Made by a program: the position numbers and the translations under genes | From: Candidatus Methanoperedens sp. | GTDB taxonomy: Archaea > Halobacteriota > Methanosarcinia > Methanosarcinales > Methanoperedenaceae | Length of the DNA: 37,279 nucleotides | Direction of reading: 5' to 3' | Assembly (NCBI GenBank): GCA_023249105.1 | Contig: JAHFDG010000039.1 | Location: forward strand, 1-37,279 | Notes under the pieces: model-generated | The model's input: only the letters and a program-made list of their open reading frames with translations | The model's database searches: none | Told to the model about the DNA's origin: nothing | Shown here: positions 17,590 through 29,706 of the stretch, piece by piece | Layout: each line of letters starts with the position of its first letter | Position numbering within the stretch: position 1 is the stretch's first letter

Positions 17590-17594
17590 CGGGC

Positions 17595-17672
17595 ATCAGA
17601 TACTTATTTCTCTGCGAATTCGGGAAAAGAAAGTCAAAATCGAAATGGTTTCGCCATTTGACGATATCTGAT
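17595..17672 (+). other. Nested inverted repeats after the decarboxylase gene
   Basis: Outer arms ATCAGATA (17595-17602) and TATCTGAT (17665-17672) are perfectly complementary. They enclose an inner hairpin with arms AAATGG/CCATTT and a 5-nt loop (17643-17659). No clear U-tract follows, so it may be a 3'-end structure, a processing site or a small RNA. It ends ~25 nt before the argH promoter. Confidence 0.35.
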
Positions 17673-17695
17673 AACCTTTGAGGATGTCAGAAGTC

Positions 17696-17732
17696 TATAT
17701 TTATACCTATTGACATGAATTAAAGAGATTTT
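17696..17732 (+). promoter_or_regulatory. Promoter of the argH leader
   Basis: An archaeal TATA-like box TATATTTATA sits at 17696-17705. A start site ~25 nt downstream would fall at about 17725-17730, only a few bases before the leader-ORF ATG at 17733. The leader ORF would then be the first translated element on the transcript and argH the second. Confidence 0.45.
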
Positions 17733-17879
17733 ATGAAAAAACTTTATGAAAGTTTTATCAAAAGAAGGGGTATGCTGCGCATACCCCTATACCGCAAAAC
17801 CGTCGCGCCGCTTTACTTCGCAGACACGTATGGCTTTGCCATACGTGGACACCGCATAAAGCGAGGTGTCGCTTTATGA
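17733..17879 (+). CDS. 48-codon leader ORF overlapping the argH start
   Basis: The frame is open from ATG 17733 to TGA 17877-17879 and overlaps the argH ATG (17876) as ATGA. The predicted peptide is basic, beginning MKKLYESFIKRRGMLRIPLY and ending RGHRIKRGVAL. It resembles no family. Almost all of the ORF consists of palindromes, so the peptide is partly dictated by them. A related 27-codon leader ORF precedes dapB in the same position. Translation of this ORF would place a terminating ribosome on the argH start. It could equally be an open frame through a palindromic repeat, so its status as a gene is uncertain. Confidence 0.45.
   Translation: MKKLYESFIKRRGMLRIPLYRKTVAPLYFADTYGFAIRGHRIKRGVAL
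17738..17878 (+). promoter_or_regulatory. argH leader: Four-hairpin leader element before argH
   Basis: Four consecutive perfect stem-loops. 17738-17756: 8 bp, loop ATG. 17766-17788: 10 bp AGGGGTATGC/GCATACCCCT, loop TGC. 17825-17847: 10 bp CACGTATGGC/GCCATACGTG, loop TTT. 17855-17878: 10 bp CATAAAGCGA/TCGCTTTATG, loop GGTG. The last holds the likely Shine-Dalgarno (GAGGTG, 17863-17868) partly in its loop and the whole argH ATG in its 3' arm. Folded, it should block initiation unless opened by a ribosome on the leader ORF. A shorter copy precedes dapB. Confidence 0.6.
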
Positions 17880-19342
17880 ATATATTAAGGCGAGGTCGTC
17901 TCCAGGTCAAACAGGATGAAGACATAATGCATTTCACATCGTCAATGGAAGCGGACATGCGGATATTCGATGCCGATATTGAAGTGGATAAAGCCCATGT
18001 TGTTATGCTAAAAGAGCAGGGCATCATAAAGGACAGCGAATGCTCAACTATCCTCTCAGGTCTTGAAAAGATTCAAAAAGAGGGAATTTCCGCTCTTGAT
18101 ACCTCATATGAAGATGTCCACATAGCCCTTGAAGCCCGGCTTATTGAACTTGTGGGCGAAGATACGGGGGGGCGTATGCATTCCGCGCGCTCACGAAATG
18201 ACGAAGTGGCAACATGCATACGCATCGCGCTGCGCACGGAACTTGTATTTCTTTTAGAGGAAGTTCATGCCCTTGCCGCAACGCTTGTCAAAACTGCTGA
18301 AGAACATCGTGAAACCATTATGCCAGGCTACACCCACACCCAGCACGCCCAGCCAACCACACTGGCTCATCACCTTCTGGCGCATGCAAACGCCTTGCTG
18401 CGCGGCATTGAAAGGATAAAAGGGGCGTATGTCCGCACGAACCAGAACCCTCTCGGCGCTGCTGCATTTGCTTCAACCGGTTTTCCAATAAACCGGGAGA
18501 GGACAACTGAACTCCTCGGGTTTGACTCTGCACTTTCGAATTCCATGGATGCTGTAAGTACGCGCGATTTTATGATAGAAAGCTTGAGTTCTTTCTCCAA
18601 TTTGATGACGGACTTAAGCCGCCTGGCTGAAGAATTTGTCCTCTGGAGTACATCCGAATTCGGGTTTATCGAGCTTGATGACAGGTATTCATCCACATCA
18701 TCCATAATGCCGCAAAAAAAGAATCCAGATATCGCCGAACTTTTGCGCGCAAAGACTGGAACGGTTCACGGCGCCCTCATGTCAGTGCTCACAATCTGCA
18801 AGGCGCTTCCGTACAGCTATAACCGTGACCTTCAGGAAGCTACGCCTCACCTCTGGCGCGCCGTTGATACCGTGCGCTCCTCCGTTCGTATGGCAAGTGG
18901 AATAGCCGGGACCATGAAAGTCAGGAAGGAAAAAATGAAAAGCGCCACAGGAATAGGATTCATGACAGCAACCGAGCTTGCAGATACCATTGTGCGCACA
19001 ACAGGCATCCCTTTTCGGACTGCGCATCATATAGTGGGTGCAAGTGCAAAGACAGGGAAAAACCCGACTCTTTCAGGGCTTGATGAACTCTCCTTAAAAA
19101 TTATCGGTAAAAAACTAAGTGAGATGGGCCTATCCGAAAAAGCCGTTAAAAAAGCCCTTGAAACCATGGAAAATATCAAGAAACGCGAGGTTCCTGGAGG
19201 CCCTGCCCCGAAAGAAACAAACCGCCAGATAAAAAAGCTGGCGAGTGACCTTACGATAATAAAGAGTGATATTAAGCGGATTCGAAAGAAAATCGACAAA
19301 GCAAGAGAGAAACTTGGTAATACGATTGGCGAGGCTGCATGA
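17876..19342 (+). CDS. argH: Argininosuccinate lyase
   Basis: A 488-residue protein of the fumarase/aspartase superfamily. The N-terminus MNILRRGRL aligns with methanosarcinal ArgH, supporting this start inside the hairpin. Catalytic segments are present: GGRMHSARSRNDEVAT near residue 102, TPGYTHTQHAQPTT-type (MPGYTHTQHAQPTT) near 148, and the signature SSIMPQKKNPDIAE near 275. It splits argininosuccinate into arginine and fumarate, the last step of arginine synthesis. It carries the structured leader upstream and overlaps the CorA-like gene at its 3' end by 4 nt (ATGA). Confidence 0.95.
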   Translation: MNILRRGRLQVKQDEDIMHFTSSMEADMRIFDADIEVDKAHVVMLKEQGIIKDSECSTILSGLEKIQKEGISALDTSYEDVHIALEARLIELVGEDTGGRMHSARSRNDEVATCIRIALRTELVFLLEEVHALAATLVKTAEEHRETIMPGYTHTQHAQPTTLAHHLLAHANALLRGIERIKGAYVRTNQNPLGAAAFASTGFPINRERTTELLGFDSALSNSMDAVSTRDFMIESLSSFSNLMTDLSRLAEEFVLWSTSEFGFIELDDRYSSTSSIMPQKKNPDIAELLRAKTGTVHGALMSVLTICKALPYSYNRDLQEATPHLWRAVDTVRSSVRMASGIAGTMKVRKEKMKSATGIGFMTATELADTIVRTTGIPFRTAHHIVGASAKTGKNPTLSGLDELSLKIIGKKLSEMGLSEKAVKKALETMENIKKREVPGGPAPKETNRQIKKLASDLTIIKSDIKRIRKKIDKAREKLGNTIGEAA

Positions 19343-28831: not shown

Positions 28832-29626
28832 TTATTTTATCCCCAGCACATCAGCCATCTCATATAAACCGGGCTGCTCAGAACAAACCCACACAGCCGC
28901 CCTCACAGCCCCTTTTGCAAAAGCCTGCCTGCTGTGCGCCTGGTGCTTGATTTCGATGCGCTCACCGTCGCCTGCGAATAATACCGTATGGTCGCCAACA
29001 ATATCGCCTCCTCGCACTGCATGGATGCCGATTTCCTTATGGCGCGGCGAAAGCCCGTGCCTGCCGTAAATAAGCTCTTTTCCACCAAGCGTTTTTGAAA
29101 TAACTTCCGCGGCTTTCACGGCTGTACCGCTTGGTGCATCCTTTTTCTGGTTATGGTGGGCTTCAATAATTTCAATATCATAATCCGAAAGGCTCTTTGC
29201 AGCCTCGGCAAGCAGACCCCAGAAAACGTTCACTCCAATGGAAAAGTTAGGTGAAATGACTGCCGCAACGCCATTTTCCGAAATTGCCTTTTTCATGAGC
29301 GCTTTCTGTTCAGGGGTGAAACCCGTAGTTCCCACAACCAGATTAACTTTCTTGGTCGCGCATGCGATTACGTTCTTCACGGCTGCATTAGCTATTGTAA
29401 AATCAATAAGAACATCGGGTTTTGACCTCTCAAGAGCAGCATCGATGAGATTGGCATCATCAACTGGAACATTAAACTTACCAGCCCTCATTACCTCGCC
29501 AATATCCTTGCCAATATTGGTAACATCTATTGCACAAACAAGTTTTAAGTCATTGGATTTCAGGATATTTTCGATAATAAGCCCGCCCATTCTCCCGCAG
29601 GCGCCCGTGACTGCTACTTTTATCAT
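28832..29626 (-). CDS. dapB: 4-hydroxy-tetrahydrodipicolinate reductase
   Basis: A 264-residue protein. The N-terminal dinucleotide motif is VAVTGACGRMGGLI. The substrate motif EAHHNQKKDAPSGTAVKAAE sits near residues 157-176, with the catalytic His pair and Lys. It reduces the DapA product in lysine/diaminopimelate synthesis. The ATG at 29626 overlaps the TGA of a 27-codon leader ORF, and its first base is in the stem of the last leader hairpin. It is downstream of dapA and rps17e in one operon. Confidence 0.94.
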   Translation of the reverse strand: MIKVAVTGACGRMGGLIIENILKSNDLKLVCAIDVTNIGKDIGEVMRAGKFNVPVDDANLIDAALERSKPDVLIDFTIANAAVKNVIACATKKVNLVVGTTGFTPEQKALMKKAISENGVAAVISPNFSIGVNVFWGLLAEAAKSLSDYDIEIIEAHHNQKKDAPSGTAVKAAEVISKTLGGKELIYGRHGLSPRHKEIGIHAVRGGDIVGDHTVLFAGDGERIEIKHQAHSRQAFAKGAVRAAVWVCSEQPGLYEMADVLGIK

Positions 29627-29706
29627 AAAGGGTTACGCCCCTTTAGGACGTATAGGGGATATTTCATATCCCCTTCTTTTGATAAAACTTTTCCAAAGTT
29701 TTTCAT
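29623..29706 (-). CDS. 27-codon leader ORF overlapping the dapB start
   Basis: The ORF begins at ATG 29706, 7 nt after the dapA stop, and ends with a TGA at 29625-29623 that overlaps the dapB ATG as ATGA. The peptide is MKNFGKVLSKEGDMKYPLYV followed by LKGRNPL. The chain dapA-leader ORF-dapB is thus contiguous for ribosomes. The nucleotide sequence resembles the argH leader, but a 1-nt difference near the start shifts the frame, so the first 13 residues differ. Conservation is at DNA/RNA level more than peptide level. Expression is unproven. Confidence 0.45.
   Translation of the reverse strand: MKNFGKVLSKEGDMKYPLYVLKGRNPL
29626..29702 (-). promoter_or_regulatory. dapB leader: Three-hairpin leader element before dapB
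   Basis: Perfect stem-loops on the minus-strand RNA. 29702-29684: 8 bp AAAACTTT/AAAGTTTT, loop GGA. 29674-29654: 9 bp AGGGGATAT/ATATCCCCT, loop GAA. 29645-29626: 7 bp TAAAGGG/CCCTTTA, loop GCGTAA, ending on the A of the dapB ATG. The block 29670-29691 is identical over 22 nt to 17749-17770 in front of argH. After the second hairpin both copies read CCCCTATAC, and both end CTTTATGA. The stem sequences of hairpin 2 differ between copies while pairing is kept, as expected for a selected structure. Confidence 0.6.

Follow-up and report, generated by a model that had tools for sequence, protein, structure and literature searches.

The window, i.e. the whole 37,279-nucleotide stretch of Candidatus Methanoperedens DNA analysed here, carries on its forward strand the gene argH, which encodes an argininosuccinate lyase of 488 aa (positions 17876 to 19342; Pfam domains Lyase_1 and ASL_C2). 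Upstream lies the native argH promoter with a TATA-like box (TATATTTATA, 17696 to 17705, + strand), spaced 35 nt from the first start codon. This codon opens a mini-ORF of 48 codons on the same strand (MKKLYESFIKRRGMLRIPLYRKTVAPLYFADTYGFAIRGHRIKRGVAL, 17733 to 17879), the TGA stop of which overlaps the argH ATG as ATGA, and the sequence agrees in this respect with the initial annotation. The four perfect stem-loops that had been reported within this mini-ORF were likewise recovered, all on the + strand, namely the left-end hairpin H1 (17738 to 17756; 8 bp, 3-nt loop ATG), the variable hairpin H2 (17766 to 17788; 10 bp, 3-nt loop), an extra cassette hairpin belonging to a ACCGTCGCGCCGC...CACGTATGGC module (17825 to 17847; 10 bp, 3-nt loop) and the right-end hairpin H3 (17855 to 17878; 10 bp, 4-nt loop GGTG), which contains the argH start codon. 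RNA folding of the block yielded -56.2 kcal/mol compared with -34.1 +/- 3.7 kcal/mol for shuffled sequences (z = -6.0).

Upstream of argH, in the interval that separates it from a decarboxylase-like gene, lies a separate palindromic stretch (17592 to 17685; outer stem ATCAGATA...TATCTGAT, inner stem AAATGG/CCATTT). Since it is unique in the genome of the window, it is not part of the repeat described below and perhaps represents a terminator or a regulatory structure.

A dispersed, modular repeat and its insertion sites

The block from 17733 to 17875 is not an argH leader; it represents a single copy of a modular palindromic repeat that is dispersed in Candidatus Methanoperedens. A search of the genome of the window with the block, in which at most 40 candidates were scored, returned at least 68 matches, from which at least 46 copies could be parsed; all copy counts given here derive from BLAST and pattern searches. 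The initial annotation had regarded absence from all related genomes as an argument against its readings, yet matches were present in 28 of the 60 relatives searched, nearly all of the same genus, and those outside the genus Methanoperedens were weak and confined to one sister genus. Exact left ends were found in 16 of 34 genomes of the family, all 16 of them belonging to the Methanoperedens genus; their number reaches 30 in a single genome, and many other genomes of the family lack them. No credible Rfam family matched the block at E-values up to 1, and a known Rfam cis-regulatory RNA was hence rejected. An origin from a virus, phage or plasmid was rejected as well, as the repeat had no match in IMG/VR (searched with an exact 22-mer), INPHARED or PLSDB. 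Using the argH copy and one right-end 22-mer as seeds, we assembled a parsed sample of 106 distinct copies from genomes that are, for the most part, draft MAGs. Since the same genomes contribute some loci to both collections, copies were told apart by their junctions.

Comparison of orthologous argH loci reveals both filled and empty sites. In about 20 genomes of the same genus, the promoter region joins the ATGA of argH directly, mostly as ATGAATAT, whereas in seven genomes the element is placed immediately 5' of that ATGA and is flanked by ATGA on both sides. Relative to the empty sites, the net gain in the window amounts to 143 nt (17733 to 17875, + strand). The left ATGA copy (17733 to 17736) occupies the native argH start position and opens the mini-ORF, while the right copy (17876 to 17879) represents the restored argH start, which overlaps the mini-ORF stop. 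In keeping with this assignment, the 35 nt from TATTTATA to the leader ATG equal the distance between TATA-like box and argH ATG in most empty-site loci. In the ArgH tree, the seven filled loci require at least four changes, although a single origin followed by losses may provide an alternative to repeated changes. Their copies have six different lengths between 143 and 266 nt, all of which equal 2 modulo 3. In genome G008 the argH mini-ORF stops within H2, where its TGA overlaps a GTG (as GTGA) that opens a second mini-ORF, and the latter terminates at the argH ATGA. The segment between TATA-like box and argH start (TTGACATGAATTAAAGA, 17709 to 17731) is conserved across most of the genus, and the ATGA it contains was never used as an insertion site.

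The smallest repeat unit measures about 76 to 83 nt and consists of H1 (AAAACTTTnnGAAAGTTTTATCAAA), H2 with a variable stem flanking GGTATGC/GCATACC, a short linker, and H3 in one of the variants AAAGCGAGGTGTCGCTTT, AAAGGGGCGTAACCCTTT or AAGCCGAAGTTTCGGCTT; longer copies hold additional hairpin cassettes in tandem or nested arrangement. Each terminus is a self-complementary hairpin of different sequence (AAAACTTTnnGAAAGTTTT and AAAGCGAGGTGTCGCTTT), and no inverted repeat is common to both. Lack of covariation had also been named as an argument against the earlier readings; in a set of 33 units, 98.6% of the cells in the three stems are paired, and two-sided changes are far more frequent than expected (42 vs 6.9), with one-sided changes nearly absent. 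Because G-U intermediates are lacking, this pattern suggests that the palindromes are also maintained perfect at the DNA level. Inspection gave no support for a conserved peptide as the selected feature, as modules are freely swapped and the H1 codon that varies coincides with the hairpin loop.

The preference for start codons extends well beyond argH. A second copy in the window (29623 to 29706, - strand; mini-ORF MKNFGKVLSKEGDMKYPLYVLKGRNPL) has duplicated ATGA flanks and an H3 of type B (GGGGCGTAACCC), and it overlaps the downstream gene dapB, which encodes a dihydrodipicolinate reductase (28832 to 29626, - strand; Pfam DapB_N and DapB_C). The dapB site is filled in the genome of the window and in G025 and holds a deletion derivative in G026, whereas the other dapB orthologues with a located start have no recognisable element. 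Upstream of the ribosomal protein gene uL14, six genomes are filled and 22 are empty, the genome of the window among the latter. Across the genus, 80 of 171 exact left ends follow immediately after ATGA, while merely 20 of the 415 ATGA tetramers in the window are gene starts. Identical start tetranucleotides on both flanks were observed for 52 of the 106 copies (51 ATGA, one GTGA), and these 52 precede 31 gene families, mostly housekeeping ones and with core genes among them. The families were assigned by Pfam and the finer host names inferred; they include argH, dapB, uL14, uL5, uL15, eL19, RNA polymerase A'' and RNase P Pop5 as well as genes for an isocitrate/isopropylmalate dehydrogenase, an acetolactate synthase-type TPP enzyme, an M24 peptidase, an EMC3-like protein and the 30-kDa subunit of complex I. 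A pelota/eRF1-like gene is likewise found downstream of an element end (L079), and a few ATGA-flanked copies lie before very short ORFs.

Copies away from gene starts are flanked by TCAA, ACGAACT, ATCCGTG or about 48 nt instead of ATGA. The ATGA flanks may have arisen by duplication of the target or may be left behind by template switching at ATGA microhomologies, and either origin fits the existence of copy groups that share the other flanks (ATCCGTG, ACGAACT, TCAA). Several copies (L028, L029, L042, L047, L048, L106, L112 and L138) are nested within other dispersed intergenic repeats, namely the ATCCGTG... and ACGAACT... families, with an element subtype specific to each flank family. One further copy (L017, ~2456-2585) is placed between near-perfect direct repeats of about 48 bp (TTTTGATGAACCCGTCT...TTCATCAAA), compared with the usual duplication of 4 nt, and L137 has a similar junction.

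Reading frame and Shine-Dalgarno sequence at start-codon sites

The 52 start-site copies vary in length from 80 to 269 nt, but in 49 of them the start-to-start distance equals 2 modulo 3 and no stop codon precedes the ATGA, so that the frame of the left start stays open until the TGA that overlaps the right start. Of the three exceptions, two stop 9 nt 5' of the ATG. As shared ancestry makes copies at the same gene non-independent, gene families and distinct lengths were counted too, and the rule holds for 29 of 31 families and for 26 of 29 distinct lengths (binomial p about 5e-10). Copies at other sites do not follow it: the length equals 2 modulo 3 in only 8 of 35, and an in-frame stop occurs in 25 of 35. 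Since the rule is specific to start sites, selection acting at start codons is the simplest explanation for the open frame, and from our point of view this frame provides the strongest evidence that the mini-ORFs would be translated.

Rearranged copies point in the same direction: in G008, G014, G024 and G026, stop and start codons still overlap one another in a chain. Upstream of uL14, two serial mini-ORFs joined by ATGA are present in G024, the first of which starts with TTGA as read from the sequence, and in G014 the element has shrunk to 13 codons while both overlaps are preserved. The remnant upstream of dapB in G026 is still linked through ATGA.

The right end of the element further supplies a Shine-Dalgarno sequence, GAGGTG (17863 to 17868, + strand), 7 nt 5' of the argH ATG and complementary to the 16S rRNA tail of the genome of the window (GGATCACCTCCT). 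A GAGGTG placed 7 nt before the restored ATG is the most frequent type of right end, and right ends without a Shine-Dalgarno sequence were observed at none of 69 start sites vs 9 of 37 other sites (p = 4e-5). The type B variant of H3, which has a weak Shine-Dalgarno sequence at best, is nevertheless confined to start sites, and for this reason the sequence supplied by the element probably helps without being essential, as was likewise found for coupling in Haloferax (PMC6728339).

A proposed translational hand-off and alternative explanations

Taken together, we consider it likely that a mobile modular repeat inserts at gene starts, nearly always at ATGA, and that a translational hand-off keeps the gene working. 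According to this model, the promoter and start signals of the gene itself would launch translation of the mini-ORF from the left ATG, and the translating ribosome would melt the hairpins, including H3 and its pairing with the start codon. The ribosome would then terminate at the TGA overlapping the right ATG and reinitiate on the host gene, a step that the element's GAGGTG, situated 7 nt upstream, presumably assists. As a consequence of such a hand-off, the encoded protein would be unchanged and the host gene would stay under its native control. In Haloferax, coupling at overlaps of the ATGA type has been proven (PMC6728339), and the insertion would mimic a native operon junction of this kind such as uS17/uL14 (GAGGTGGCAAAATGA), with the difference that here a mobile element makes the Shine-Dalgarno-ATGA junction and thereby adds an artificial upstream gene.

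The strong hairpins, one of which covers the argH start codon (17855 to 17878), could also be taken for a cis-regulatory leader that evolved for argH, be it an attenuator, a riboswitch or the target of an RNA factor, and the initial annotation had offered this as one of two readings. The same element, however, precedes at least 31 unrelated gene families, most sister genomes lack it before argH despite an otherwise similar promoter, and no Rfam family matches it. Because of these dispersed copies and empty sites, we reject an argH-specific leader as scarcely credible, and control by a ligand or factor specific to argH is dropped with it. What survives of the earlier reading is the idea that translation of the mini-ORF opens the start-codon hairpin; this is likely, although the effect would be to neutralise the insertion rather than to regulate argH. 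From a distinct perspective, one could imagine that the mini-ORF is irrelevant and that the ribosome bypasses the element between the two AUGA copies, or that the RNA is excised there. Hairpins are typical of programmed bypassing signals, and the two AUGA copies might be the codons at which the ribosome takes off and lands, or might form a junction. Neither bypassing nor excision would require the frame to be open or the length to equal 2 modulo 3. Both features are nevertheless kept by 49 of the 52 copies and by 29 of the 31 families, and the right end that bears the Shine-Dalgarno sequence is associated with start sites, which makes this explanation very improbable.

It is further conceivable that insertion occurs without preference and that the same hand-off operates, with copies at start codons being mere survivors while insertions at other genic sites are lethal. 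Insertion into an essential gene would indeed be lethal, the start codon would be a harmless site for this element, and copies at other sites are numerous. On the other hand, intergenic DNA is as harmless and far commoner, yet ATGA directly precedes about half of the exact left ends despite the scarcity of gene starts among the ATGA tetramers of the window, and mini-ORFs linked in series by ATGA occur; we therefore regard a lack of preference as unlikely. Copies at argH, uL14 and other genes of several species with conserved frames might also be domesticated leaders that tune translation and are positively selected at each gene. Patchy presence among close relatives, varying module content at the same gene and host genes that share no function speak against such domestication, which appears quite improbable to us. 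In our view, the element more probably behaves as a passenger, selfish or neutral and of gene-friendly design, than as a regulator of argH.

With regard to mobilisation, the transposase search covered the Y1 type only, and none of the five Y1 transposase loci in the genome of the window has an element within about 1.5 kb on either side, so that mobilisation by a Y1/RAYT enzyme was rejected. Nor did the loci retrieved lend support to a longer autonomous parent sharing both ends, since none of them combined a left end with a right end far away. The element could spread by template switching between ATGA microhomologies, without a transposase of its own. It is further plausible, though slightly less likely than not, that this class of element targets the translation start itself: it would use or recognise Shine-Dalgarno-ATGA junctions and rebuild one at its right end for serial stacking, while the hand-off keeps the host gene expressed.

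Relation to known repeats

Mobile DNA usually disrupts genes or stays clear of them. The present element, in contrast, occupies a codon that genes cannot lose and leaves the protein unaltered, even when the host gene encodes a ribosomal protein or RNA polymerase. The filled and empty sister loci represent natural, replicated tests of archaeal termination-reinitiation, and the tens of predicted small peptides together with the hairpin leaders would form an unseen layer of expression in a key methane-consuming genus. For annotation, there is a risk that mini-ORFs are called as genes and that start codons are misplaced.

Several known repeats share features with the element. Like the MITEs of bacteria and archaea, it is short and multicopy, lacks a transposase gene, has duplicated flanks and has corresponding empty sites; each of its ends is, however, a hairpin of its own instead of part of a common inverted repeat, no partner transposase of the Y1 type that was sought was found, and a location at start codons goes unmentioned in a MITE review from 2024 (PMC10969869). 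The composite arrays of small palindromes resemble REP/BIME sequences, which are associated with RAYT (Y1) enzymes, but REPs are extragenic by definition and the five Y1 loci of the genome of the window lie apart from the element. Borg tandem repeats occur in the same host genus, both within and outside genes, but they are direct tandem repeats and are reported to be virtually absent from host genomes (PMC9879509), whereas the element is dispersed, palindromic and located on Methanoperedens contigs.

In architecture, to which the comparison refers, the element also resembles the Rickettsia palindromic elements (RPEs), which are likewise dispersed palindromic repeats of about 80 to 150 nt with an open frame in unrelated genes; their hosts belong to a different domain. 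An in-frame palindromic repeat comparable to RPEs had been the other reading of the initial annotation, and while dispersal and empty sites bear it out, the leader lies in a frame other than that of argH and ends at the ATGA, so that the element is not in frame with argH. RPEs join the host protein, whereas the Methanoperedens copies mostly sit at start codons and encode a separate peptide, with the start restored by the ATGA overlap and the Shine-Dalgarno sequence. Start-codon insertion with a separate peptide and a putative hand-off is the main mode, and no description of it was found in open-licence papers on Methanoperedens palindromes, MITEs or transposases and on start-codon insertion with coupling. 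In-frame lengthening of a host protein is limited to single copies such as that in moeA of L046 (~2498-2582), where a copy in reverse orientation adds about 27 residues, the ORF stays open and the aligned PDB homologue is gapped at the inserted residues. As such, the element is able to behave like an RPE.
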